From positions 2,405,501 to 2,469,500 of the forward strand of contig NZ_CP038255.1 in NCBI RefSeq assembly GCF_004564135.1: a stretch of 64,000 nt of DNA, read 5' to 3'. Shown here piece by piece: positions 16,985-39,401 of this stretch; the first letter of the stretch is position 1; every line of letters starts with the position of its first letter. Under the pieces are notes generated by a model that saw only the letters and a list, made by a program, of their open reading frames with translations, made no database searches and had not been told where the DNA came from. The translations under genes were made by a program, and so were the position numbers. The stretch is from Terasakiella sp. SH-1 (lineage in GTDB: Bacteria > Pseudomonadota > Alphaproteobacteria > Rhodospirillales > Terasakiellaceae).

Positions 16985-19819
16985 ATGACAAAACCCGATA
17001 CAGACCTGTATCCCCCCTTAATCAAGGCTGCACCAACAATTTTTGGTGTTCTCTTTGGTATCTCGATTGTCCTAATTTCCCTTATTCTTGAAATGTATGT
17101 CACGGGCTTAAGCTGGTCCTATAAGAACTTCATTCAAATCCACCAAAACAATCCTGTGCTTTTCATTATCGGCACAGCCCCTGTTATTCTGGGGGTGATG
17201 TTTTTCATCATCGGGCAACAACATTTCAAACTAAGGCAAAGTGTTGCTGAGACACAGCGCGAAAAGAAGCTTCTGCAAACCTTCATTGATACCGTCCCCG
17301 GTCATATCAATATGAAAGATGCCAGCGGGAACTATCTGTTGATGAACCAGTTCCAACGCGATTATTTCGGTTGGGAACCCCATGATATCATTGGGAAGTC
17401 AATCACTCCACACGCCGAAAATGCCAAAGAACACCATGCTGTTTTACAATCGCGCAAAACAGAAGTTTTTGAACGCGAACTCACAGATAAAAATGGCAAT
17501 AAGGACTGGTGGCTGCATTCGCGCTCCCCGATTTTAGATGAGCAGGGCCATGTGGCTTATGTGGCGACCAGCGCCTTGAATATTTCTGAACGTAAGCTTT
17601 ATGAACAAAAATATGCCCAAACGGCAAAAGAGCTGGAGGCGATTCTTGAAAATGCCTCGCTGGGGATTTTTGTTGTCTCAACGGCAAGCAGGGCCATTAC
17701 CCGCGTCAATAAACAGTTTGAAAATATGATGGGTTATAGCCGGGAAGAACTTCTCGGCCAGAACACCCGTTTATTTTATCTTTCCGACGAGGATTGGGCA
17801 GCTTTGGGGCAACGGGCTTACCCTAAACTGGCACAAGGCCAAACTCATCGTGAAGAAGTCCGCTGGCGCGATAAAGGGGGCTCTTTACACTGGATTATGC
17901 TGACAGGAGCCATCGTTGATCCGGACAATGGCGAAGATGCCATCTGGCTGATTGATGATGTGACTGCAAGACGCGAAGCCGAAGAAGCTGTGCGGCAAAA
18001 AGAAAAAGAATTACAACGCAAAACCGACCTGCTGGAAACAACCTTTTCCAATATCAGTCAAGGCATTGCCTTTGTGGACGAAGATTACAAGGTTGCCGTG
18101 TGTAATTCTGTCTTTTTGGATATGCTGGACTTCCCAAAAGAACTTGGGCGTGAAGGTACTCCTGTTGAAGAATTATTCAGATATCGGGCCCTGAAAGGCA
18201 ACTACGGCAGCGGAGATGTGGAAGAGTTTGTCAAAAAAAGGATGGAACGTACTCTTAGTGGGGACACTCATCATTTTGAATATGAACGAAGCAATGGGAC
18301 AACCCTGGAAGTCGTGGGCAAAAAAATGCCCTCTGGCGGTTTTGTAAATACCTATACCGATATTACCCAACATAAAAATGCACAGCAGCAGATTTCATCC
18401 CTGTTAAATCACGCCGACCAAGGGTTCCTGTCCTTTGGCCCAGATTTAATCGTTCACCCCCAATATAGCCTTGCCTGCACAAACTTCTTTGGCACAAAGC
18501 CCGCAAACCATAAGATTACAGACTTATTGGGCAACGGTTTTGATCAGGAATTTTTTGACAGTTGCATCCATCAGGTTTTTAACAGTCCGGACGAATTCCA
18601 GAAACAAATGTTTTTGGGCCTCTTGCCTAAAGAGTTTGGGTTTAATCAACAGTATTTCAGCGCCAGCTATCGTTTCATAGATGAGCGTCATTTGATGATG
18701 GTTCTGACCAATATCAGTGAAGAACGCCGTCTGGAAGAAGAATTAACCAGCAGCCATGATGAATTGAAAATGATCGTCAATTATGTCCGGGAACGTAAAA
18801 CCATTCAGGACCTGATCAACGATTTTCGCGTTTTTCTGGCCCGTCTGGAATGGTCCATAGAAGACGGCGGGCCTGACTGGCATGAAACCTATCGTCAAAT
18901 TCACACCTTCAAAGGACTGTTTATGCAGTTCTCCTTCCGCCACCTGACAGACGCTATTCACAGATCAGAAGATAATCTGCAAAAACTGTCAAAAGATCAT
19001 AAGCGCCAAGAGCTTGTTGATAGCGTGGATGCCAAAACTCTGTTCAAGGCACTTGATCTTGATTTGGCAATTATCGTTGATCAGCTTGGGGATGCGCATA
19101 TTGATCATCATTCAGCCCCGCAACATTACCTGTACCGCATGCAAAAACTGCAAAAGGCCCATCCACAGCTGGAACAAGATGACACATTCATCTCTCTTAT
19201 GGATGAGGTTAAAAAATCTCAGAAAAAAGAGATGAAGAATTTACTATCCCCCTATCTATCCGGTCTTGAATTGATCGCAGAAAAAGCAAACCGCAAAGTT
19301 GACGGGGTGGAATTTTGCGGGGATGAAATTTATGTCCATGCTGAAGAATACCGCCCGTTCCTCAAAAGCCTGATTCACGTTTTTAGAAATGCTGTCAAAC
19401 ATGGAATTGAAGAGACAGACAAGCGTATCGAAATCGGTAAACCCGAAGAAGGTAAAGTGACGTGCGAACTCTTAGATAAGCAAGACTTCTTTGAAATGAA
19501 AATTTCCGATGACGGCCATGGTATTGACGTAAATGCCATCACTAACAAAGCCATCTCTCTCGGCCTGATTGATCCAATAAAAGCCGAGGGGCTCAATCAT
19601 CAGGAGAAGATGATGCTGATCTTTCAGGACGAATTTTCAACCACTGAAGAAGCCAATGAATTGTCAGGACGTGGCATCGGCTTAAGTGCGGTAAAGAAAG
19701 AGTTAGATGACTTAAATGGATCAGTAAAAGTGGAAACCACTCCCTTACAGGGCACAAGTTTCACCTTTTCCCTCCCTTATGAGGCAGATCAAGCCCTCAA
19801 CGCAAACAGCAGTAACTAA
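16985..19819 (+). CDS. CheA-like PAS/Hpt sensor histidine kinase
   Basis: 944 residues: two membrane helices (about 15-37 and 57-78), three PAS domains (about 90-455), a further PAS-like module starting LLNHADQGFLSFGPDLIV, an Hpt domain with probable phosphorylated H640 in QIHTFKGLFMQF, and a CheA-type ATPase (HVFRNAVKHGIEE, DDGHGID, GRGIGLSAVKKEL). There is no ordinary HisKA H-box and no C-terminal CheW-like domain, so it is not a chemotaxis-array CheA. The last 480 residues closely parallel the kinase at 33258-35438. No receiver gene is directly adjacent; the CheY-like proteins elsewhere in the window are candidates. Confidence 0.9.
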   Translation: MTKPDTDLYPPLIKAAPTIFGVLFGISIVLISLILEMYVTGLSWSYKNFIQIHQNNPVLFIIGTAPVILGVMFFIIGQQHFKLRQSVAETQREKKLLQTFIDTVPGHINMKDASGNYLLMNQFQRDYFGWEPHDIIGKSITPHAENAKEHHAVLQSRKTEVFERELTDKNGNKDWWLHSRSPILDEQGHVAYVATSALNISERKLYEQKYAQTAKELEAILENASLGIFVVSTASRAITRVNKQFENMMGYSREELLGQNTRLFYLSDEDWAALGQRAYPKLAQGQTHREEVRWRDKGGSLHWIMLTGAIVDPDNGEDAIWLIDDVTARREAEEAVRQKEKELQRKTDLLETTFSNISQGIAFVDEDYKVAVCNSVFLDMLDFPKELGREGTPVEELFRYRALKGNYGSGDVEEFVKKRMERTLSGDTHHFEYERSNGTTLEVVGKKMPSGGFVNTYTDITQHKNAQQQISSLLNHADQGFLSFGPDLIVHPQYSLACTNFFGTKPANHKITDLLGNGFDQEFFDSCIHQVFNSPDEFQKQMFLGLLPKEFGFNQQYFSASYRFIDERHLMMVLTNISEERRLEEELTSSHDELKMIVNYVRERKTIQDLINDFRVFLARLEWSIEDGGPDWHETYRQIHTFKGLFMQFSFRHLTDAIHRSEDNLQKLSKDHKRQELVDSVDAKTLFKALDLDLAIIVDQLGDAHIDHHSAPQHYLYRMQKLQKAHPQLEQDDTFISLMDEVKKSQKKEMKNLLSPYLSGLELIAEKANRKVDGVEFCGDEIYVHAEEYRPFLKSLIHVFRNAVKHGIEETDKRIEIGKPEEGKVTCELLDKQDFFEMKISDDGHGIDVNAITNKAISLGLIDPIKAEGLNHQEKMMLIFQDEFSTTEEANELSGRGIGLSAVKKELDDLNGSVKVETTPLQGTSFTFSLPYEADQALNANSSN

Positions 19820-29185: not shown

Positions 29186-30193
29186 TTAACTTGCCTGTTT
29201 CATATAACTTTTAGCAACAACGCGATTGCCGCAACCGAGATATTCAACCTCATCAAACGCCATTGACATGGTCAACATGATCCCACGACCATGAAGGTCG
29301 AGCATGCGTTTTGGGGATGCCTCGACAAATTCCTGCCAATCAAAACCTTCGCCCATATCCTGAATATCCACTTCAATATGGTCGGCAAAACGCTTGAAAG
29401 TACATGTGACATATTTGTCCCTGTTTTCTTCAAGCTTCATGCGCTTTTCGATTTCATCAGCCCAGCGTCCATCTAACAAAAGCTTGCCTTTTTCATCATA
29501 GGCAATGCCCAGATTGCCATGTTCAACGGCATTCACCAGTAACTCATTCAATCCCAGCAAGGCATTATCCGGTACCGTAAACAAATGGGACATTGTCAAC
29601 GCGACATTTTCCGCATCCTGAATAGATTTGATTTTATAATCAATACGTTCCATCTTGCGTAACGTTTCAATGGGCCGTTCCAGTTTGGCCAGCAAATCCT
29701 TGTAACGCCTGATCACAGAAGCCAGCTGTGATTGTTTGGCCTCATCAGCCTCACCATCACAACCATCTTCAAGCCGGGTGAAAAAGTCATTGAGCGCGAT
29801 ATTATAGCTTTGAACAGCACGTTTACTGACATCAAGCTGCGCACGGATACTGGCCAGTAAAATATCATAATCAATCGGCTTGGACAGGAAGTCATTCACC
29901 CCCAGCTCTTTACCCAGAATTTCATCTTCACGCGATGAAAATGCTGTCAGGAAAATAAAGGGGGTCGCAGCAATTTCAGGATGATCAGTCTTAAACTTAA
30001 CAAAAAACTCATGCCCACCCAATTTCGGCATGTTGATATCGGAAATAATCAAATCCGGCTTATATTGCAAAATCTTGGCAATGCCCTCTTCCCCGTCAGC
30101 GGCCTCAATCGTATCAAAGCCATTGAGTTCAAGGACATCTTTAATATCTTCACGTACATCATTCTCGTCTTCGACGATCAGAATTAAAGTCAT
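29186..30193 (-). CDS. Receiver-HATPase regulator (REC fused to anti-sigma-type ATPase)
   Basis: 335 residues. An N-terminal receiver (D9, phospho-acceptor D52 in LIISDINMP, K in SKPID) is followed by a helical linker (about 120-200) and an ATPase domain of the RsbW/SpoIIAB type: NELLVNAVEHGNLGI, DMGEGFDW, HGRGIMLTMSMAFDEV. There is no HisKA phospho-acceptor, so it is not a normal histidine kinase; such domains phosphorylate or bind partner-switch proteins. Its start overlaps the hemerythrin stop (ATGA), so the two are translated together. A paralogue lies at 45950-46936. Confidence 0.9.
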   Translation of the reverse strand: MTLILIVEDENDVREDIKDVLELNGFDTIEAADGEEGIAKILQYKPDLIISDINMPKLGGHEFFVKFKTDHPEIAATPFIFLTAFSSREDEILGKELGVNDFLSKPIDYDILLASIRAQLDVSKRAVQSYNIALNDFFTRLEDGCDGEADEAKQSQLASVIRRYKDLLAKLERPIETLRKMERIDYKIKSIQDAENVALTMSHLFTVPDNALLGLNELLVNAVEHGNLGIAYDEKGKLLLDGRWADEIEKRMKLEENRDKYVTCTFKRFADHIEVDIQDMGEGFDWQEFVEASPKRMLDLHGRGIMLTMSMAFDEVEYLGCGNRVVAKSYMKQAS

Positions 30194-30606
30194 GCCTTGT
30201 CCTTTCCCTTTTCAAGGGCGGAGCGATATTTCATATCTTCAGATAAAATATGACCGGTCCACCACTCCCGCAGGAACATGATAATTTCATCAGGAACCTT
30301 GTTTTCATGGGCCATTGCCGCCACTGACAAGTTCGAGATCTTTTCCAGGTACTGCCAGTGCTGTTGACGGTGTGCGTCAAAATCTTCATAGCTGCATTGC
30401 ATCAGAACTTCTTCTTCATAGCGTAAATGCTCTTCCGAATAATGCAGAAGTTCTTCCAACACAGTTGAAACCAGCTCACTATCGACGTCAACCTGACCCT
30501 GTGCAGATAACTGGTTAATCAATTCAAAAATCTTCTTGTGCTGGTTATCCAATTCCTCTTGCCCAACACTGTATTTTTTATCTTCCCAAACAATACGTTC
30601 CATCAT
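30190..30606 (-). CDS. Bacteriohemerythrin coupled to a REC-ATPase regulator
   Basis: 138 residues with a full hemerythrin ligand pattern: DNQHKKIFELIN, EEHLRYEEEVL, AHRQQH and GHILSEDMKY. Expected to bind O2 at a di-iron site. The start is the first or second of two adjacent ATGs behind AGGG. The 4-base overlap with the downstream REC-ATPase gene points to a dedicated pair, perhaps an oxygen sensor acting on the regulator. Confidence 0.9.
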   Translation of the reverse strand: MMERIVWEDKKYSVGQEELDNQHKKIFELINQLSAQGQVDVDSELVSTVLEELLHYSEEHLRYEEEVLMQCSYEDFDAHRQQHWQYLEKISNLSVAAMAHENKVPDEIIMFLREWWTGHILSEDMKYRSALEKGKDKA

Positions 30607-30869: not shown

Positions 30870-31643
30870 TTAATGCATGATCCGGCGTGATAAACTAACC
30901 TCATAGCCTAAAAAGCGAATCACAAGGTCCTTTTCACCGTTTTTATACTGCTCCAGCATATCGAGCAAATTGACTAACCCTTCATAAAAACTGTGCTGGC
31001 AATGAGGGGGCTTTCCCCCCTCCCTTTCACTCTCGCAATGCTTGCCTATAAATTCTTTCACTTCATCAATCACACTTTGATAAAACGCATCGTCTTCCAG
31101 CAAAACGGGCTCGTAGCTGATCAAATTGATGATATCGACAATTGATTTTTTATCGCGTTCAAACGGGCTATCGGCAGGTTCAACAGAAGACTTATAGCGG
31201 ATCAGCGTTTCACGGGGTAATTGCACCTGAAGTTTCAATGCCTTGCGACTGCCACTTTTGGGACAACGCAAACAATCCAACTCGTCAGGAATAATGACAT
31301 CCGTCATCAGAAGTTCGACAAATCCTTCCAGTTCTTTCAGACTTAAATTGAAATTGCTGAGTTTTAAATTTTCAAGATGACGCAAAAGCTGATGCTGTTT
31401 TTGCATTTTGCTATTGCAGCTTTGAGGGTCGAATTCACTTTGTTCAAGTGTCTCGATTTTGCTTCTACAATAATGGAAGGCTGTTGATAAAATAATCTTA
31501 AGCTGTTGAACCTGTTCTTCCTGCGTCCATTCACAGCTCTTTGACATACAGTAATGATCGTACAGATCCTGCAATTCCATAAATCCCGGATAAAAATTAT
31601 CCAGATAATTGCACTTGTCCCCATATGTTCCTTGGAAAAACAC
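30870..31643 (-). CDS. Unknown protein sharing a C-terminal domain with the divergent neighbour
   Basis: 257 residues, soluble, with no signal peptide. The N-terminal two thirds are helical and cysteine-rich, with a CxxC (DCLRCPKSGSRKALKL) near residue 123 and a PRETLIRYKSS segment that resembles the linker after it. The last 90 residues (from FERDKKSIVDIINLI to YEVSLSRR) align with almost the whole 136-residue protein at 31898-32308: shared IINL, LLED, a FYEGLVNLL-type core, and GE-L-I-FL-YE--L-RR. Function unknown. It reads away from its neighbour across a region with a striking inverted repeat. Confidence 0.75.
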   Translation of the reverse strand: MFFQGTYGDKCNYLDNFYPGFMELQDLYDHYCMSKSCEWTQEEQVQQLKIILSTAFHYCRSKIETLEQSEFDPQSCNSKMQKQHQLLRHLENLKLSNFNLSLKELEGFVELLMTDVIIPDELDCLRCPKSGSRKALKLQVQLPRETLIRYKSSVEPADSPFERDKKSIVDIINLISYEPVLLEDDAFYQSVIDEVKEFIGKHCESEREGGKPPHCQHSFYEGLVNLLDMLEQYKNGEKDLVIRFLGYEVSLSRRIMH

Positions 31644-31897: not shown

Positions 31898-32308
31898 GTG
31901 GAAACGCTCATTCAGCATACAGTTAAAAAAGAACTTGATGGCGATCAGTTCAGTAGAGAGCAACAATGCATCTGCAATATCATCGACCTCGTCAACTGTG
32001 ATCCTTCCGTACTGGAAGACCACAATGTGTGCAATACCATTGTCAGCGAATTATGGGATTATGTGGAAAACCAATGTGATAACCCGTTGCGCACCGGATT
32101 ACAGATCAAATCCGTTCATTTCACAGAAAGCTTTTGTGACGCCCTGAAAAGCCTTCTGGAAACCTTATTGGATTATCATCAGGAAGGCGAACATCGCCTG
32201 TTGATCCTGTTCTTACTTTATGAAATTGAACTGGTGCATCGTCGCTTTGAATATACAGGCACCCCCAGCAATCAAAATAGGCTGATGGATGGGGCTGTTA
32301 ACGCATAG
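31898..32308 (+). CDS. Small unknown protein, paralogous to the C-terminus of the divergent gene
   Basis: 136 residues, soluble and helical. The first in-frame start used is a GTG at 31898, behind TTGAGGGAG, a strong ribosome site. The domain FSREQQCICNIIDLVNCDPSVLED ... GEHRLLILFLLYEIELVHRR matches the C-terminal 90 residues of the protein at 30870-31643. It lies next to the CheX/receiver cluster (convergent, 21-base gap), but no functional link is visible. I do not recognise a named family. Confidence 0.75.
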   Translation: METLIQHTVKKELDGDQFSREQQCICNIIDLVNCDPSVLEDHNVCNTIVSELWDYVENQCDNPLRTGLQIKSVHFTESFCDALKSLLETLLDYHQEGEHRLLILFLLYEIELVHRRFEYTGTPSNQNRLMDGAVNA

Positions 32309-32329: not shown

Positions 32330-32704
32330 TTAAGAGTAATTTTCTATAACCTGAGTGAACATTTCCTCAACACTGTCTTCTTTCACAGGTTTGAGGACAT
32401 ATCCCTTTGCCCCGGCATCAAGGGCAGACATGATCATTTGTTCCTGCCCGTGGGATGTCACCATGACAATCAATGCCTCAGGGTTATCTTTTAAAATATG
32501 GCGCGTTGCCTCAATCCCGTCCATATCCGGCATGGTGATATCCATCGTCACAATATCAGGCTTGTGTTCCCCGTATGCTTCAATGGCCTTACTGCCCGTA
32601 CGTGCCGTGCCAACAATTTCATGCCCCATCCCTTTTAAGATGGCGATCAATTTTTTTTGCGCGATAAGCGAATCATCAACGACCAAAACCTTCAGGGGAT
32701 TCAT
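32330..32704 (-). CDS. Single-domain response regulator (CheY-like), operon A
   Basis: 124 residues, receiver only: D10/D11, phospho-acceptor D55 in VTMDITMPDMDG, VTSHGQEQM at the switch region and K in LKPV. It is closely similar to the receiver at 36319-36693, including the identical stretch MDITMPDMDGIEAT. Overlaps the CheX-like gene upstream by 4 bases. Likely receives phosphate from the CheA-like kinase of the same operon. Confidence 0.93.
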   Translation of the reverse strand: MNPLKVLVVDDSLIAQKKLIAILKGMGHEIVGTARTGSKAIEAYGEHKPDIVTMDITMPDMDGIEATRHILKDNPEALIVMVTSHGQEQMIMSALDAGAKGYVLKPVKEDSVEEMFTQVIENYS

Positions 32705-33261
32705 TCGTTATTTTCTCCCGTTCCGATAAAATTCAGGTGATCATCAAACAGTTCTGTGGGGCCGACCAGATCAATTTCCAAACGCCCAAACCTGGATTCA
32801 AGACCAACAGTAAAAAATTTTGCATCCGCATTCCCGGCAACCGTCTTGGCCCCGAGAATCACCACTGGTGGGGATAAGGGAATAATCGTCCCCTTTTCAG
32901 CCAAATCCGCCGTGCTGTTACCCACAATTGTATTCACAACTTCGCATGCTGTTTCCTTGATATAAAGATCATGCTCGTCATCATCGACTTCCAGATCTTC
33001 AGTCATGGCTTCCATCAAATGATCAAGCAGCGGCTCATCAAAGCTGAAGGCAATAAAGAGATTAATATGCCCGCCAACAGAAACCAGCGATGTAATAGGA
33101 AGCAAATCCAGTGACTTCACATCATCAACTTTATAATCGCGCTTCTTAATTTCCACGCCAGTTTCGGAAGATAAATAATTTTCCGTATAACGGGCAATGA
33201 CAGAAACAAGCGAACGTATCTGGTCTTTAATATGTATGGAATTCATATTTTCCAACTTCAT
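32701..33261 (-). CDS. CheX-like chemotaxis-type phosphatase, operon A
   Basis: 186 residues. The fold pattern matches the CheX/CheC family: PITSLVSVGGHINLFIAFSF, then the catalytic-type helix ETACEVVNTIVGN with the ExxN motif (E and N spaced as in CheX), and GRLEIDLVGPTELFDD at the end. CheX proteins dephosphorylate CheY~P. It sits between a CheA-like kinase (4-base overlap) and a CheY-like receiver (4-base overlap), so the three are translationally coupled. Confidence 0.85.
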   Translation of the reverse strand: MKLENMNSIHIKDQIRSLVSVIARYTENYLSSETGVEIKKRDYKVDDVKSLDLLPITSLVSVGGHINLFIAFSFDEPLLDHLMEAMTEDLEVDDDEHDLYIKETACEVVNTIVGNSTADLAEKGTIIPLSPPVVILGAKTVAGNADAKFFTVGLESRFGRLEIDLVGPTELFDDHLNFIGTGENNE

Positions 33262-35438
33262 GCATGCATCTCCCCCCGAGATGTACTGTCACCTGTTAAG
33301 ATTTTATCCGGAATGGTAAAAGTAAAACAAGTCCCTTCACCAATTTTCGTTTCTACACTGACCCGCCCACCGAGCTTTTCCGTTTCCGCTTTCACAGCTG
33401 CCAAGCCGACACCGCGTCCGGAAATCTCTGTTATATTTTCTGTCGTCGATATATTATCGGCAAAAATATACGTGAGAATTTCATCATCACCTAAACTTTT
33501 TACCTGTTCATCCAATAAAACATTTCTCTTCACAAGCCTGCGTCGCAGCTTGCCAGCATCAATGCCCCGGCCATCATCACAGATGACCACCGTAACCTTA
33601 TGATTTTTCCGGCTGATTTCACAAGTGATACGTCCCTCTGGGGTTTTGCCCAGTTCATCACGTTCATCCAGGGTTTCCAAACCATGATCAACGGCATTAC
33701 GAAACACATGAACAAGGGACTTGGCAAAGCTGCGATAGCGGTTGGGGTCCACCATAACGGCTTCCCCTTCAATCTCAAATTCTGCCACTTCTTTATCCAG
33801 ACGCTGGGCAACACGATAAATGCTGGTGGAATAAGGGGTAATCAAGTCCCGCAAATCTTTTTGACCAATTTCGGATAACAGGGCCAATAACTGGTTGTAA
33901 TTCTGATTTTGTGACAGGAAGGGGTGTTCCCCCACCATATTGTCAACCAGCTCATTGATTTCCGGCAGAATAATGTTCATGCCCTGATCACGCATAATAA
34001 CTTCACTGCCCAAGGCCCCGGTCAAAATCTCCAAGTCAGTCCTAAGCGCATCGGTAATGGCCTCCACATCCAGTTTCAGCGCCTCGCCTTGCACCTGATC
34101 ATTACGTTCCTGCAGCTGCATCTGGCTTTCAATATCATGTAATGTATCGGCCAACGTTGGAAAAGCGAACTGGGCAAACAACCCTTTAAACGTATGGACC
34201 TGTCGATACAGCTCTTTATTCAATTTTTCAGGCTTGTTCATTGCCCTATATAGTTCCGGCACACCGACATAAATGAACTCATTAAAATCATCCAGTAAAT
34301 CGAGAAAGGTTTCACGTTCCGTTGCCACATTAACGATCATTTCCAAGCGCTTACGGTTTGTATCCAGTTTTTCCTGAAGCTTTCTCTCATCACTGATATC
34401 AGACAGGATCAGCATGACACGGCCTGTCCCTAAAATATTATATTTAATTTCAATGATGCGCCCATGGAGGGCTCGTTCTTTGACCAGCAAATTCACCATC
34501 AAGCTGCGCTTGAACCTATCTTTCTCTCCCATCGCTCGTTTGATGGTATCGGCAAAAAATTCTGCCGTGCCATCACCACATTCTTCCTTCGAAAATAACA
34601 GCTCGGAAATCAACTTACCTGCCGGAGGCATTGCAAACATTTTTTCACAAGCCCGGCTGTAATTAGGCTCCACAATCAAATCCGCACCAAAGGACAAAAA
34701 GCCCTGATCAGAAGAATTCAACAAACGTGAAATCGCATCAGAAGATACGGCAAGACTGTCATTGGCAGAACGCAACAACCCTTGTTCATGGGCCAGCTGG
34801 TCAACCATCCGGTTATATGCCTTAACCACCCGGCCAATTTCATCATCGGAAAAAAGATCGACTTTGATCGTGGTATTGTCATTTTCACTGGCTTGAATAA
34901 TCTTGAGAAAACGGGCCAAAGGTTTACCAACCAGATGTCTATTGGCAAGCAAAGCTGCCCCAATCATCACGATCAATAAGGCAATGAGCTGCAAAGCATC
35001 ATGCGTGAGCTGCCGGATCAGGGCTTCATCGGTTCTCTTGTCATTAAAGGTAATCAGCAGATGACCAAGCGTATGGATCTTTTTGCCATTATCAAAAACA
35101 ATATCAGTTCGAGAACTCAGTTCTGAGCGATCATCCCGAACTTCCCCGTTTCGGGCAATTTCCACCCCGTCGGCATCAACGATCTGCGCCCCGGAAATAT
35201 CCTGATCAAGAACAATGGTTTCCAACGTGCGCTGAATACTCTCATAATCAAAGTTCCACAAGGGCATTGCCAGCGACACCGCCATGGATGATGTCAGCTT
35301 GCGGTTTTTCTCTTCAATTTCCTGCCGGATATTTTCAGCCGTATAATAGCCAAAAATCACTGAAACCAAAACGGTTGCAAAAATAACCGGCGGTAAAAGA
35401 TAGAGCAAAAACTTCGTATGGATTGTTCTTTGCTGCAT
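33258..35438 (-). CDS. Membrane CheA-like Hpt histidine kinase, operon A
   Basis: 726 residues: helix (about 9-30), periplasmic domain (about 31-145), second helix (about 147-165), HAMP (VGKPLARFLKIIQAS), PAS-like module (LLNSSDQGFLSFGADLIV), Hpt domain with probable phospho-acceptor H415 in VHTFKGLFAQFAF, and a CheA-type ATPase (HVFRNAVDHGLE, DDGRGID, GRGVGLAAVKAE). No CheW-like domain follows. The C-terminal half parallels the kinase at 16985-19819. It heads an operon with CheX- and CheY-like genes by 4-base overlaps, giving a compact kinase, phosphatase and receiver set. Confidence 0.92.
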   Translation of the reverse strand: MQQRTIHTKFLLYLLPPVIFATVLVSVIFGYYTAENIRQEIEEKNRKLTSSMAVSLAMPLWNFDYESIQRTLETIVLDQDISGAQIVDADGVEIARNGEVRDDRSELSSRTDIVFDNGKKIHTLGHLLITFNDKRTDEALIRQLTHDALQLIALLIVMIGAALLANRHLVGKPLARFLKIIQASENDNTTIKVDLFSDDEIGRVVKAYNRMVDQLAHEQGLLRSANDSLAVSSDAISRLLNSSDQGFLSFGADLIVEPNYSRACEKMFAMPPAGKLISELLFSKEECGDGTAEFFADTIKRAMGEKDRFKRSLMVNLLVKERALHGRIIEIKYNILGTGRVMLILSDISDERKLQEKLDTNRKRLEMIVNVATERETFLDLLDDFNEFIYVGVPELYRAMNKPEKLNKELYRQVHTFKGLFAQFAFPTLADTLHDIESQMQLQERNDQVQGEALKLDVEAITDALRTDLEILTGALGSEVIMRDQGMNIILPEINELVDNMVGEHPFLSQNQNYNQLLALLSEIGQKDLRDLITPYSTSIYRVAQRLDKEVAEFEIEGEAVMVDPNRYRSFAKSLVHVFRNAVDHGLETLDERDELGKTPEGRITCEISRKNHKVTVVICDDGRGIDAGKLRRRLVKRNVLLDEQVKSLGDDEILTYIFADNISTTENITEISGRGVGLAAVKAETEKLGGRVSVETKIGEGTCFTFTIPDKILTGDSTSRGEMHA

Positions 35439-35761
35439 AAGCCTGCGGTATCAATCATCTCTTAAGCTGTATCACCTAAAACAACGGCAATCACAGCGAT
35501 ATTATTCTGTCAAAAAGTGCGCCTGTTAAGCGTAGTATATTTTGATTATACCAAAAAAGAAACGCCCTTTTAGAACCTATTAACTGAAATGAAACCCACG
35601 TGAGCAAAGCGACAAAAGAAACCAAAAATATAGAGCTATCCAACAAACAGAAGCAGAAGTTGCAAAAAACAAAAGATTTATTTTCTCAAATTCACTTTCT
35701 GGTGATATAAATACTGCGACGCCACCGATGTAAATTTGCCAATGCGCAGGAAAGCGTAGTA
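35439..35761. other. 323-base divergent intergenic region between operons A and B
   Basis: AT-rich, without a convincing gene. It should hold the promoters of both signalling operons. Visible are a TATAAT on the minus strand (35550-35545), GTATA/TATAC half-sites around it, and the AGGAAAG ribosome site of the plus-strand CheX gene. Nothing else stands out. Confidence 0.5.
35545..35550 (-). promoter_or_regulatory. Possible -10 element for operon A
   Basis: The minus strand reads TATAAT, about 100 bases before the kinase start. The hexamer 17 bases upstream (CTAAAA) is a poor -35, so the assignment is tentative. Confidence 0.3.
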
Positions 35762-36319
35762 ATGGGACAACAACAAATAGATACGCAGGAAACAAAACGT
35801 CAGATCGAAAAGATGATGTATGTCATCACGCAGCATGCCGAAGATTTTCTGGCTGAAGAAACCCAGACGGCTGTGCAAAACTGTGAATTTTCGATGGGGG
35901 GAAGCCAGCAAATTGAACTGAAGCCCCTGACCTCCTTTGTGTCCCTTGGTGGCCATATAGATACGATCATTGCTTTCAGCTTCGATGAATACCTCATTGC
36001 CCATCTGACCAAAATGTTCACCGCCGACATCGAGTTTGAAGAAGACGAATTTGAACTCTATGTTCAGGAAACAGCCGGGGAAACCGTCAACACCATTGTT
36101 GGGCAAAGCACGGCTGAACTGGCACCGCCACGACGCACCGTTTCGCTTACCCCGCCAGAAACCATTTATGGAAAAAAGAAAATCCGTGGGGATGAAAGCT
36201 CACGCTTTTTCAGTGCAACCCTGACAACTGAATTCGGCACCATGGACATTGACCTGCTGGTCCCGACAGAACTGTTTGACAACAAGCTTAATTTCATTGG
36301 CCGGGGGGCGCCTTCCTGA
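35762..36319 (+). CDS. CheX-like chemotaxis-type phosphatase, operon B
   Basis: 185 residues, a paralogue of the protein at 32701-33261: LTSFVSLGGHIDTIIAFSF, the helix ETAGETVNTIVGQS with ExxN, and TMDIDLLVPTELFDNKLNFIG. Expected to dephosphorylate the CheY-like protein whose gene begins inside its stop codon (TGATG). The AGGAAAG site lies 8 bases before the start. It is the first gene of an operon that continues with a receiver, an EAL protein and a cNMP-binding protein, but has no kinase of its own. Confidence 0.85.
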   Translation: MGQQQIDTQETKRQIEKMMYVITQHAEDFLAEETQTAVQNCEFSMGGSQQIELKPLTSFVSLGGHIDTIIAFSFDEYLIAHLTKMFTADIEFEEDEFELYVQETAGETVNTIVGQSTAELAPPRRTVSLTPPETIYGKKKIRGDESSRFFSATLTTEFGTMDIDLLVPTELFDNKLNFIGRGAPS

Positions 36320-36693
36320 TGACGCCAATGTCTGTTCTCGTCGTGGACGATTCCCTGATCACGCGAAAAAAAGTCTCAAGCCAGCTGGAAAATATGGGCC
36401 ATAACGTTGTACGTATGGCCTCAACGGGTAAGGAAGCGATCGAAGCTTTTCGTGAATGTATCCCTGATGTTGTCACCATGGATATCACCATGCCCGATAT
36501 GGATGGGATCGAAGCAACCAAACATATTATCGCCCATTACCCCTCTGCGGTCATCATTATGGTCACCTCTCACGGTCAGGAACAAATGGTTATGGAAGCC
36601 CTGAAAAGCGGGGCAAAGGCTTATGTCCTGAAGCCCATTCAGGCCGATAAGCTGCAACAGGTTTTGCAACAAGTCTATGACAGGTATTTTTGA
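36319..36693 (+). CDS. Single-domain response regulator (CheY-like), operon B
   Basis: 124 residues, receiver only: D10/D11, phospho-acceptor D55 in VTMDITMPDMDG, VTSHGQEQM, and LKPI. Close paralogue of the receiver of operon A. Its start codon overlaps the CheX stop by one base. It has no output domain, so output probably goes through protein contact, for example with the EAL protein 69 bases downstream. Confidence 0.93.
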   Translation: MTPMSVLVVDDSLITRKKVSSQLENMGHNVVRMASTGKEAIEAFRECIPDVVTMDITMPDMDGIEATKHIIAHYPSAVIIMVTSHGQEQMVMEALKSGAKAYVLKPIQADKLQQVLQQVYDRYF

Positions 36694-36762
36694 TCTCTTT
36701 GACAAAAGCCTGAGAAACGATACACTTACTGTTCCTTCTTCTTTCTGATCCGGGGTTTGCTT

Positions 36763-38412
36763 ATGGCAGATATTGATGCCTTAAAGCAGGACAAAAACCG
36801 CTTTGTAAAACTTGCCTTCTGCCGTGCAGACCTTTTGTTTGAGGTCGATAGCGACAACATCATTCATTTTGTTGCCGGAGCGACAGAAGCCCTGTTCGGT
36901 CGGTCTCCCGATGAAATGGCAAACACCCCTTTTCTTGATCTTGTCAGCGAAAAGCAACGCACCCTGACCCAAGGCATGCTGGATGGCACATCCGAAGATG
37001 AACGGATCGAAGATGCCGAGATCACTCTGATTGGTCAAAAAGGGCTGCGCCTGCCCTGCATCATGGCCGGGTACCGCACACCTGAATTTGACAATCACGC
37101 TTTTCTCGCCATCAAGATTGTCACTACAGCAAAGGCAGAAGTCCAAAACGCAAGCCAGAGCGGTGAAATCCTCAGTCAGGAAGGTTTTTCCCAAGCCGCC
37201 GCCCAGCATTTGCAGGACCACCTTCAAAAAGGCGGGCAAGGTCAGGTCACACTGATTAAGGTCAAACGGATCAAGGACCTGTTCAAAATGATCGGGGCCA
37301 GTGACCGCCAATCCTTAACCGGTGCCATTACCGATGTGCTGAAAAACTACTCACTGGGTAAAAATACGGCCGGGCAAATCAGTGAAGATAGTTTCGGTTA
37401 TGCCCATACACCGGACATAGACACCGATAAAGTGAATATGGAGATCGAAGAGGCTGCCCAGAAGTTCCTTCCCGATGGGGAAGAGCTGGCAACCAACGCC
37501 CTGACCATGGATGCCGATGGCGCAGGTATGAGTGAAGATCAGGTCGCCAAGGCTCTGGTCCATACCATGCAGCAATTTTGTTCAACCGATAAAAAAGTCA
37601 GTGCGACCCGCCTGTCAGACTCCCTAGATGAAATGATGAATGGCACGGTTGAAACGGTCAAATTCATCAAGGACGTTACCCGCACCAAAGACTTTGATCT
37701 GGTCTATATGCCCATTTGCGACATGCGCTTGGGTAAGGTTCATCATTTTGAAGTGCTGTCACGCTTCCAACAAGGTGAAAACACACCACCGACTTTTCAA
37801 ATCATCACACTGGCGGAAAACCTTGAACTGATTGTCGATCTGGACTTTGCCGTTTTTGAAAAAACAATCACTCATATGCACAGCATTCTGTCCCAAGGGT
37901 CTGTTCTGCCCAGCGTCGCCATTAACCTGTCCAGCATTTCACTGAACAACCCACGTTTTGTTCAACAAGTTCACAAACGGCTAGAAAATTATCCGGGCCT
38001 GACCAAACGCTTGATGTTTGAACTGACAGAATCAGCCGAAGTCAAACATCTGGAACAAACCAACCAGATCATTCAGGATTTCCGAAACAAAGGCTTTAAA
38101 TTCTGCCTTGATGATTTTGGGGCAGGTGCGGCCAGCTTTGATTATTTAAATGCTTTGGAAGTCGATATCGTCAAGTTTGACGGCCCTGTGGTGCGCCGGG
38201 CTTGTGCCAGTAAACGCGGGCATGACATGCTCAGCACCATGGCAAAAATGTGTAATACCAGCGGCATCGAAACCGTTGCCGAAATGGTTGAAGATAAAAA
38301 AATCGCCAATCAGGTTTATTATTGCGGAATAGATTATGGACAGGGATGGTATTTCGGTAAACCCCACCGTGACCCTCTTTCCTTCCAGGACTTATTTGTG
38401 GGTAAAAGCTAA
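36763..38412 (+). CDS. PAS/degenerate GGDEF/EAL protein, predicted c-di-GMP phosphodiesterase
   Basis: 549 residues from ATG 36763, with CGGGG 7 bases upstream. Residues about 10-120 look PAS-like, about 140-240 like a degenerate GGDEF (ISEDSFGY at the signature), and about 290-545 are EAL. The EAL residues appear complete: E of EVLSRF, NLSS, ELTES, DDFGAG, VKFDG, AEMVED and QGWYFGKP. It should therefore cleave c-di-GMP. It has no membrane helix and follows a CheX-CheY pair, suggesting control by a phosphorylated receiver. Confidence 0.85.
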   Translation: MADIDALKQDKNRFVKLAFCRADLLFEVDSDNIIHFVAGATEALFGRSPDEMANTPFLDLVSEKQRTLTQGMLDGTSEDERIEDAEITLIGQKGLRLPCIMAGYRTPEFDNHAFLAIKIVTTAKAEVQNASQSGEILSQEGFSQAAAQHLQDHLQKGGQGQVTLIKVKRIKDLFKMIGASDRQSLTGAITDVLKNYSLGKNTAGQISEDSFGYAHTPDIDTDKVNMEIEEAAQKFLPDGEELATNALTMDADGAGMSEDQVAKALVHTMQQFCSTDKKVSATRLSDSLDEMMNGTVETVKFIKDVTRTKDFDLVYMPICDMRLGKVHHFEVLSRFQQGENTPPTFQIITLAENLELIVDLDFAVFEKTITHMHSILSQGSVLPSVAINLSSISLNNPRFVQQVHKRLENYPGLTKRLMFELTESAEVKHLEQTNQIIQDFRNKGFKFCLDDFGAGAASFDYLNALEVDIVKFDGPVVRRACASKRGHDMLSTMAKMCNTSGIETVAEMVEDKKIANQVYYCGIDYGQGWYFGKPHRDPLSFQDLFVGKS

Positions 38413-38444
38413 ACAATAAGCGCCCATTAGAAAAGAGAGATCGA

Positions 38445-38885
38445 ATGAGTAAAATTGCTTTTGAACGCGCCTTTCAAGAACTCAGCGAAATTGAAATCAA
38501 CGAACTGATGGAAAAATCGCACTATCTGGTCTTTCAGGCAGATACTGAAATCATGCGTGAAGGTGAAGACCCAAACCAGATTATGGTGATCTTAGGTGGG
38601 GAAATCCGGGTGGTCCGCTACGGCCAAAACGGCAAGGAAACCGAACTGTCCTCCCCGCTTGGTCCCGGCGATACCGTAGGGGAAATGTCCTTTATTGATC
38701 ATATGGGAGCCAGTGCCACACTCATCGCCAATACAGATGTGGCGGTGAAATCCATTGACCCTAATCTTGTCGAGGAAATGACCAAGCATCACCAAGGTTT
38801 TCGCGAACGTTTTTATCATTCCCTGCTGCATACGGTAATCAGGCGCTTGCGCTTACTGGATTACAAAATATCCTTTGGCGGATAA
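38445..38885 (+). CDS. Cyclic-nucleotide-binding domain protein without DNA-binding domain
   Basis: 146 residues, a single CRP-type beta-barrel: GEDPNQIMVILGGEIRVVRYG, then a phosphate-binding-cassette region GEMSFIDHMGASATLIA, and a C-terminal helix. In cAMP-binding CRP the cassette has an R after GE-L; here the arginine is missing, so the ligand is uncertain. There is no helix-turn-helix, so it is not a transcription factor. It lies 32 bases after the EAL gene and probably belongs to operon B. Confidence 0.8.
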   Translation: MSKIAFERAFQELSEIEINELMEKSHYLVFQADTEIMREGEDPNQIMVILGGEIRVVRYGQNGKETELSSPLGPGDTVGEMSFIDHMGASATLIANTDVAVKSIDPNLVEEMTKHHQGFRERFYHSLLHTVIRRLRLLDYKISFGG

Positions 38886-39401
38886 TCAAACCGTTATCAG
38901 GTTGACCTCAATCGCCAGCTGACCATCCATCACCACACTGCGGATCGGACCAACGGTAAAACTGGAAACCGCCAAATCCTGATTCATCGAAACCATTTGA
39001 TCCAAAATGGATTCCACAGCTTCCAACAGTTCACACTTTTCCGCATCCATATCTGAATAGCCCAATACGACAGCCAGATTGTCATTCAGGCTCAGATCAC
39101 TCTTATAGCCTGATGACGTAAGATGTTGATGCAGGATAATCGCACCACTGGCCGCACTTAGTGGTTCTTCCTGCCCGGCAAAGGCATCCTTGAAATTTTC
39201 AGCTGCTTTGAGAATTTCTTCTTCTGACGGCATATTCATCATGGCGACTTCAGCGCCAATGGGCTCGTTGCCAAACAGTTCAAACTCATCTTCAACAGGG
39301 TCATCGTCAAAGAGGTCGATATCATCTTCATCAACTTTGGCAAACCTTGCAATCAGCTCATTTGCACTATCAAACTGATGGTCATTTCTTTTTTCGAGCA
39401 T
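38886..39401 (-). CDS. Acidic protein of unknown function
   Basis: 171 residues. The N-terminal half is very acidic (DEDDIDLFDDDPVEDEFELFGNEP) and probably disordered; the C-terminal half looks compact (LSLNDNLAVVLGYSDMDAEKCELLEAVESIL). No signal peptide or known domain. Its stop codon abuts the stop of the cNMP-binding gene with no gap, so the two transcripts must overlap at their 3' ends. Confidence 0.65.
   Translation of the reverse strand: MLEKRNDHQFDSANELIARFAKVDEDDIDLFDDDPVEDEFELFGNEPIGAEVAMMNMPSEEEILKAAENFKDAFAGQEEPLSAASGAIILHQHLTSSGYKSDLSLNDNLAVVLGYSDMDAEKCELLEAVESILDQMVSMNQDLAVSSFTVGPIRSVVMDGQLAIEVNLITV

Follow-up and report, generated by a model that had tools for sequence, protein, structure and literature searches.

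Two divergent operons in the complete, 3.83-Mb genome of Terasakiella sp. SH-1 combine parts familiar from chemotaxis with a gene for a c-di-GMP phosphodiesterase, which raises the question of whether these parts serve swimming or a pathway of their own, and of which kinase acts on the operon without one. Our analysis of the window (the whole 64,000-nucleotide stretch of DNA containing both operons) leads us to regard it as rather probable that operons A and B represent an array-independent phosphorelay of chemotaxis parts acting on a c-di-GMP enzyme. This reading is founded on gene anatomy, domain content, recurrence in other bacteria, gene fusions, and association with a distinctive PAS domain, and it would mean that the operons probably control c-di-GMP rather than swimming.

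Anatomy of the operons and their kinase

Operon A, on the minus strand, encodes the kinase KIN-A (33258..35438), CheX-A (32701..33261), and the receiver REC-A (32330..32704), with 4-base overlaps at both junctions. A divergent intergenic region of 323 bases (35439..35761) separates it from operon B on the plus strand, which encodes CheX-B (35762..36319), REC-B (36319..36693, overlapping CheX-B by 1 base), an EAL protein (36763..38412 from its ATG start), and a cyclic nucleotide-binding (CNB) protein with a single-domain cNMP-binding fold (38445..38885). The gene orders, strands, and overlaps of the original prediction were confirmed at every coordinate. The counterparts of CheX-B, REC-B, and the EAL protein in the congener G001 are 70%, 75%, and 85% identical, respectively, and the CNB gene is likewise kept 3' of the EAL gene there.

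The two CheX proteins each match PF13690 (~2e-14 in Pfam), are 43% identical to each other, and carry the ExxN motif noted earlier, at residues 107-110; their sequences identify them as predicted phosphatases of the phosphorylated receivers. REC-A and REC-B are single-domain receivers with complete phosphoacceptor sites (D10, D11, D55, T83, and K105); they are 60% identical overall, and the identical block around D55 that had been noted extends over 16 residues (VTMDITMPDMDGIEAT). Both belong to what we call the TSHGQE class. Only 3 of the 108 receiver domains in the genome fall into this class (100, 60, and 56% identity to REC-A), and the next best is 39% identical, which excludes a chance likeness. 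Similar pairs are known as CheX/CheY3 in Thermotoga and Borrelia, which resemble the present proteins in the PF13690 fold and ExxN motif but differ in that operons A and B contain neither chemoreceptors nor CheW; the PDB matches of CheX include the CheX chain of 3hzh, with weak sequence similarity (E about 1e-3). An origin of the two operons by recent tandem duplication of a CheX-REC pair was rejected, since REC-A and REC-B do not form an exclusive pair in the tree, although the CheX proteins of the two operons are mutually closest by path.

KIN-A has two TM-like segments, a periplasmic segment, HAMP, and a PAS-like region, followed by Hpt (Pfam, residues 394-461, 8.8e-7), a P3-like hairpin, and a CheA-type P4 ATPase (HATPase_c, residues 573-712, 1.3e-17). 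The candidate phosphoacceptor is His415 in YRQVHTFKG. Neither HisKA nor CheW was matched in KIN-A (Pfam, E<=1), a genome-wide search for the CheW family gave matches in other genes only, and only 14 residues remain beyond HATPase_c, leaving no P5. PF02895 gave no match in KIN-A with HMMER, and P3P4 was recognized instead from structure: an AF2 model of the last 377 residues (pLDDT 82) had as its top Foldseek match the CheA P3P4 structure 4xiv (3.6e-16), and the best matches in a PDB sequence search with KIN-A were CheA structures. The Hpt, dimerization helices, and P4 core of CheA are thus all present; Hpt and the CheA-type ATPase had been noted before. The original prediction that the kinase works outside chemoreceptor arrays is supported by the same domain content, as array-independent action is to be expected of a protein without P5/CheW.

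KIN-A shares P1 (Hpt), P3-like helices, and P4 with CheA; P2 and P5/CheW are missing from it, and a membrane sensor, HAMP, and PAS are built in. P5 is regarded as a requirement for CheA, since surveys have found it in every CheA; in one of them, 100% of the CheA proteins had CheW, which also accompanied the CheA dimerization domain in every case (PMC10782961). By that definition KIN-A is not a CheA, yet it should function like one. Residues 2-380, which make up the input half, show homology (98 bits) to the input half of a GGDEF-EAL protein from a different genus within the order, so KIN-A has the look of a sensor attached to a CheA core. The GGDEF-EAL protein (L028:1474-3873) has the whole input half in common with KIN-A, suggestive of an exchange of sensors between class kinases and c-di-GMP enzymes.

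A recurrent module and its probable output

Operons A and B are one copy of a recurrent module, in which a sensor joined to Hpt, a P3-like hairpin, and CheA P4 without P5 is followed by CheX and then by a receiver of this class, and often by a gene for a c-di-GMP enzyme. Scanning named genomes with the receiver alignment alone retrieved 17 class loci (L080-L095 and L130) that span Alphaproteobacteria, Betaproteobacteria, Campylobacterota, and deltaproteobacterial/Desulfobacterota lineages. A class kinase is adjacent in 13 of the 17, CheX is adjacent or fused in 16, and GGDEF is the next gene in 6, from three lineages. Kinase and CheX are fused in L089 and L094 (Campylobacterota), and CheX and REC in L059 and L062 (Paramagnetospirillum), which lends Rosetta-stone support to kinase, CheX, and REC as a functional set; the adjacency counts and fusions bear out the earlier proposal that this set is real. 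Wherever an aligned class kinase covers Hpt, the histidine is conserved, and the ATPase box is the last element of every aligned kinase except the two CheX fusions. The kinase-CheX-REC order is also seen at two more loci, from the taxonomic order to which the Herbaspirillum genome belongs. The class is rare: strict cutoffs, with 11 candidates scored per genome, give lower bounds of 1 genome in 385 for its bacterial class and 3 in 399 for the order that includes Herbaspirillum.

Some loci depart from the common plan. L059:3201-9539 (Paramagnetospirillum) encodes a giant class kinase in which Ser/Thr kinase, AAA, GAF, and PAS domains precede Hpt and P4, and which is followed by a CheX-REC fusion and then GGDEF. 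In Paramagnetospirillum (L066:8445-16856) and Roseospira (L083:735-9375), class CheX-REC pairs that lack a kinase have a large polyketide synthase (KS-AT-DH-KR-ACP-TE) as their neighbor.

In operon B, CheX and REC adjoin a c-di-GMP enzyme composed of PAS, a degenerate GGDEF (SEDSF), and EAL; its PAS match is weak (Pfam, E 2.5e-4). The catalytic EAL motifs (ExL, N, ExTE, DDFG, KxD, E, and QG) are all present, as FEVLSRF, NLSS, FELTES, DDFGAG, KFDGP, VAEMVE, and YGQGWYF. Since the same receiver class is followed by GGDEF genes in other phyla, the c-di-GMP output proposed earlier for one branch is likely. Against a tie between the EAL protein and REC-B, EAL paralogues (~45% identical) occur in congeners that have no CheX/REC, and the EAL gene may have a promoter of its own.

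Association with a three-cysteine PAS domain

The output proteins neighboring the class have in common, across lineages, a PAS domain at the N terminus in which three cysteines are conserved (C..aIYxQxxPCxFC); its carriers are GGDEF proteins encoded after the receiver and, in Paramagnetospirillum, HisKA kinases whose genes adjoin CheX-REC. Across four Paramagnetospirillum genomes, all genes with this domain lie in class CheX/REC clusters (n = 11, with one gene split into two matches in G117), and the same is true of 10 of 10 matches above 62 bits in 14 other genomes. These genomes were picked for having the class, whereas L179 and L180 were fetched by the PAS domain alone; both are kinase-CheX-REC-PAS operons. 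The domain occurs essentially only beside these receivers. A search of the Terasakiella sp. SH-1 genome found no copy of it, and the link between REC-B and the EAL protein therefore rests on an adjacency kept in two species.

The idea of docking came first from this PAS pattern, and a precedent was found independently afterwards. According to the summary of PdcABC (Wang et al. 2022) in PMC9899790, phosphorylated PdcC of Burkholderia thailandensis binds the PAS domain of the cyclase PdcA and inhibits it, and PdcB is a phosphatase with a CheC/CheX domain that reverses this action. The association seen here matches that mechanism by analogy: in both cases a CheC/CheX phosphatase and a receiver control, or would control, a c-di-GMP enzyme outside chemotaxis, through PAS in Pdc. 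The Pdc output described there is the cyclase PdcA, whereas that of operon B is an EAL protein. That summary names no kinase, and our likening of PdcC to the present receivers follows its description rather than its sequence. The circuit is close to the published Pdc, and the family of P5-less CheA-type kinases is its less known part.

Chemotaxis-derived phosphorelays that control c-di-GMP also include the Wsp/ACF chemosensory systems. Operons A and B resemble them in being a chemotaxis-derived phosphorelay with proposed c-di-GMP control. The Wsp pathway comprises a receptor, CheW proteins, a P5-containing CheA, and REC fused to GGDEF, all of which are absent from operons A and B.

From these observations we infer phosphotransfer, CheX activity, and contact between REC and EAL, together with the sign of its effect. 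In the pathway that we propose, a membrane or cytoplasmic sensor would feed a P5-less kinase core of CheA type, composed of Hpt, P3-like dimer helices, and P4, the Hpt histidine would phosphorylate single-domain receivers of one class, CheX would strip the phosphate from the receiver, and the phosphorylated receiver would act on a c-di-GMP enzyme by protein contact. In relatives with a recognizable output neighbor, the target may be a GGDEF cyclase or a HisKA kinase with the three-cysteine PAS; in Terasakiella, the neighboring candidate target is the PAS-GGDEF*-EAL phosphodiesterase. A broader generalization seems to us about evenly balanced, namely, that P5-less CheA-type kinases whose built-in sensors replace the array, a CheX phosphatase, and one receiver class docking on the three-cysteine PAS of c-di-GMP enzymes or secondary kinases make up a widespread yet rare kit that was rewired to a phosphodiesterase in this genus. 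Such a kit is apparently undescribed as such in the open-licence literature searched, and an earlier description elsewhere is possible. If true, chemotaxis parts can work as an ordinary array-free two-component system, the kinases are candidates for Pdc-type c-di-GMP circuits, and the PAS association is a directly testable docking prediction.

Kinases, receivers, and the wiring of operon B

The Terasakiella sp. SH-1 genome encodes three class kinases, three class receivers, and two class CheX proteins. KIN2 (16985..19819, plus strand; PAS domains, Hpt, and CheA P4, no CheW) is an orphan ~16 kb from operon B with no CheX or REC adjoining, and at 2.667 Mb KIN3 and REC3 form a divergent pair that has no CheX; neither KIN2 nor this pair figured in the original prediction. 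The genome has one more PF13690 protein, at 172 kb, which did not come up in the class CheX search. Among the congeners compared (G001-G005), the class is confined to G001; G002-G005 have neither the kinase nor the receiver nor CheX, a pattern that indicates co-occurrence of the three. The B locus of G001 keeps all four operon B genes with synteny on both flanks, and operon A is missing from it, with a HipA gene in its place (L057:9166-10401). Operon B thus appears as the stable element and operon A as a variable cassette next to it, and the site difference is a cassette swap adjoining operon B. The sole class kinase of G001 lies elsewhere, unlinked to B, with its own CheX and REC. Of the predicted linkage of the two operons, operon B itself is kept in G001, and its union with operon A is not; the twin arrangement was found in none of the other genomes examined. 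The twin-operon layout, like the single-kinase wiring considered below, is best regarded as local or unproven.

It had also been proposed that one kinase serves both CheX/receiver pairs. The inventory of this genome does not support that part, although such sharing may be real in G001, where a single class kinase is available to two class receivers; of the arguments for sharing, this is the strongest. If KIN-A alone phosphorylated REC-A and REC-B, operon A would form the upstream half of a circuit with two branches; no kinase other than KIN-A adjoins operon B, both receivers have the block around D55, and class kinases hardly differ in the Hpt sequence that flanks the histidine. This arrangement is nonetheless quite improbable, given two further class kinases in the genome, including the orphan near operon B, and a G001 locus in which B stands independent of A. 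Three insulated pairs (KIN-A/REC-A, KIN2/REC-B, and KIN3/REC3) would fit the equal numbers of kinases and receivers, the proximity of orphan KIN2 to orphan REC-B, and the divergent KIN3 and REC3 genes. We consider this unlikely as well: G001 has REC-B yet no KIN2-like class kinase, and a KIN2/REC-B match seen in full-length scores across 21 loci vanished when catalytic cores alone were compared with adjacent receivers. Kinase and receiver trees give no resolution of which kinase pairs with which receiver, and the near-identical Hpt sequences make cross-phosphorylation within the class plausible.

The receivers could instead be accessory chemotaxis CheYs that bind the motor or act as a phosphate sink, with the EAL gene an unrelated neighbor. 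Single-domain RECs score well against CheY models, the genome also has canonical cheA/cheW loci, and a promoter-like site between REC-B and the EAL gene (TTGACA-16-TACACT, 36699-36726) makes separate transcription of the latter possible. We give this very little credence, because the class adjoins its own P5-less kinases rather than che clusters, is followed directly by GGDEF genes in three lineages, and stands apart from the genome's other receivers, those of the che loci included. Phosphorylation of REC-B in trans by a pool of class kinases (KIN-A and/or KIN2, possibly KIN3), rather than by KIN-A alone, would be the most likely wiring.

Several neighbors of the two operons were also recorded. 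A 171-amino-acid protein (38886-39401, minus strand), which has no match in Pfam or NCBIfam, is kept in G001, where it also adjoins operon B. Two proteins of unassigned function that seem related to each other (30870-31643, minus strand, and 31898-32308, plus strand) likewise keep their synteny in G001, and the former has a weak SiaC-like match (E 0.085). Farther out, a receiver fused to an anti-sigma-type HATPase_c_2 domain (29186-30193, minus strand) overlaps a hemerythrin-domain gene (30190-30606, minus strand).
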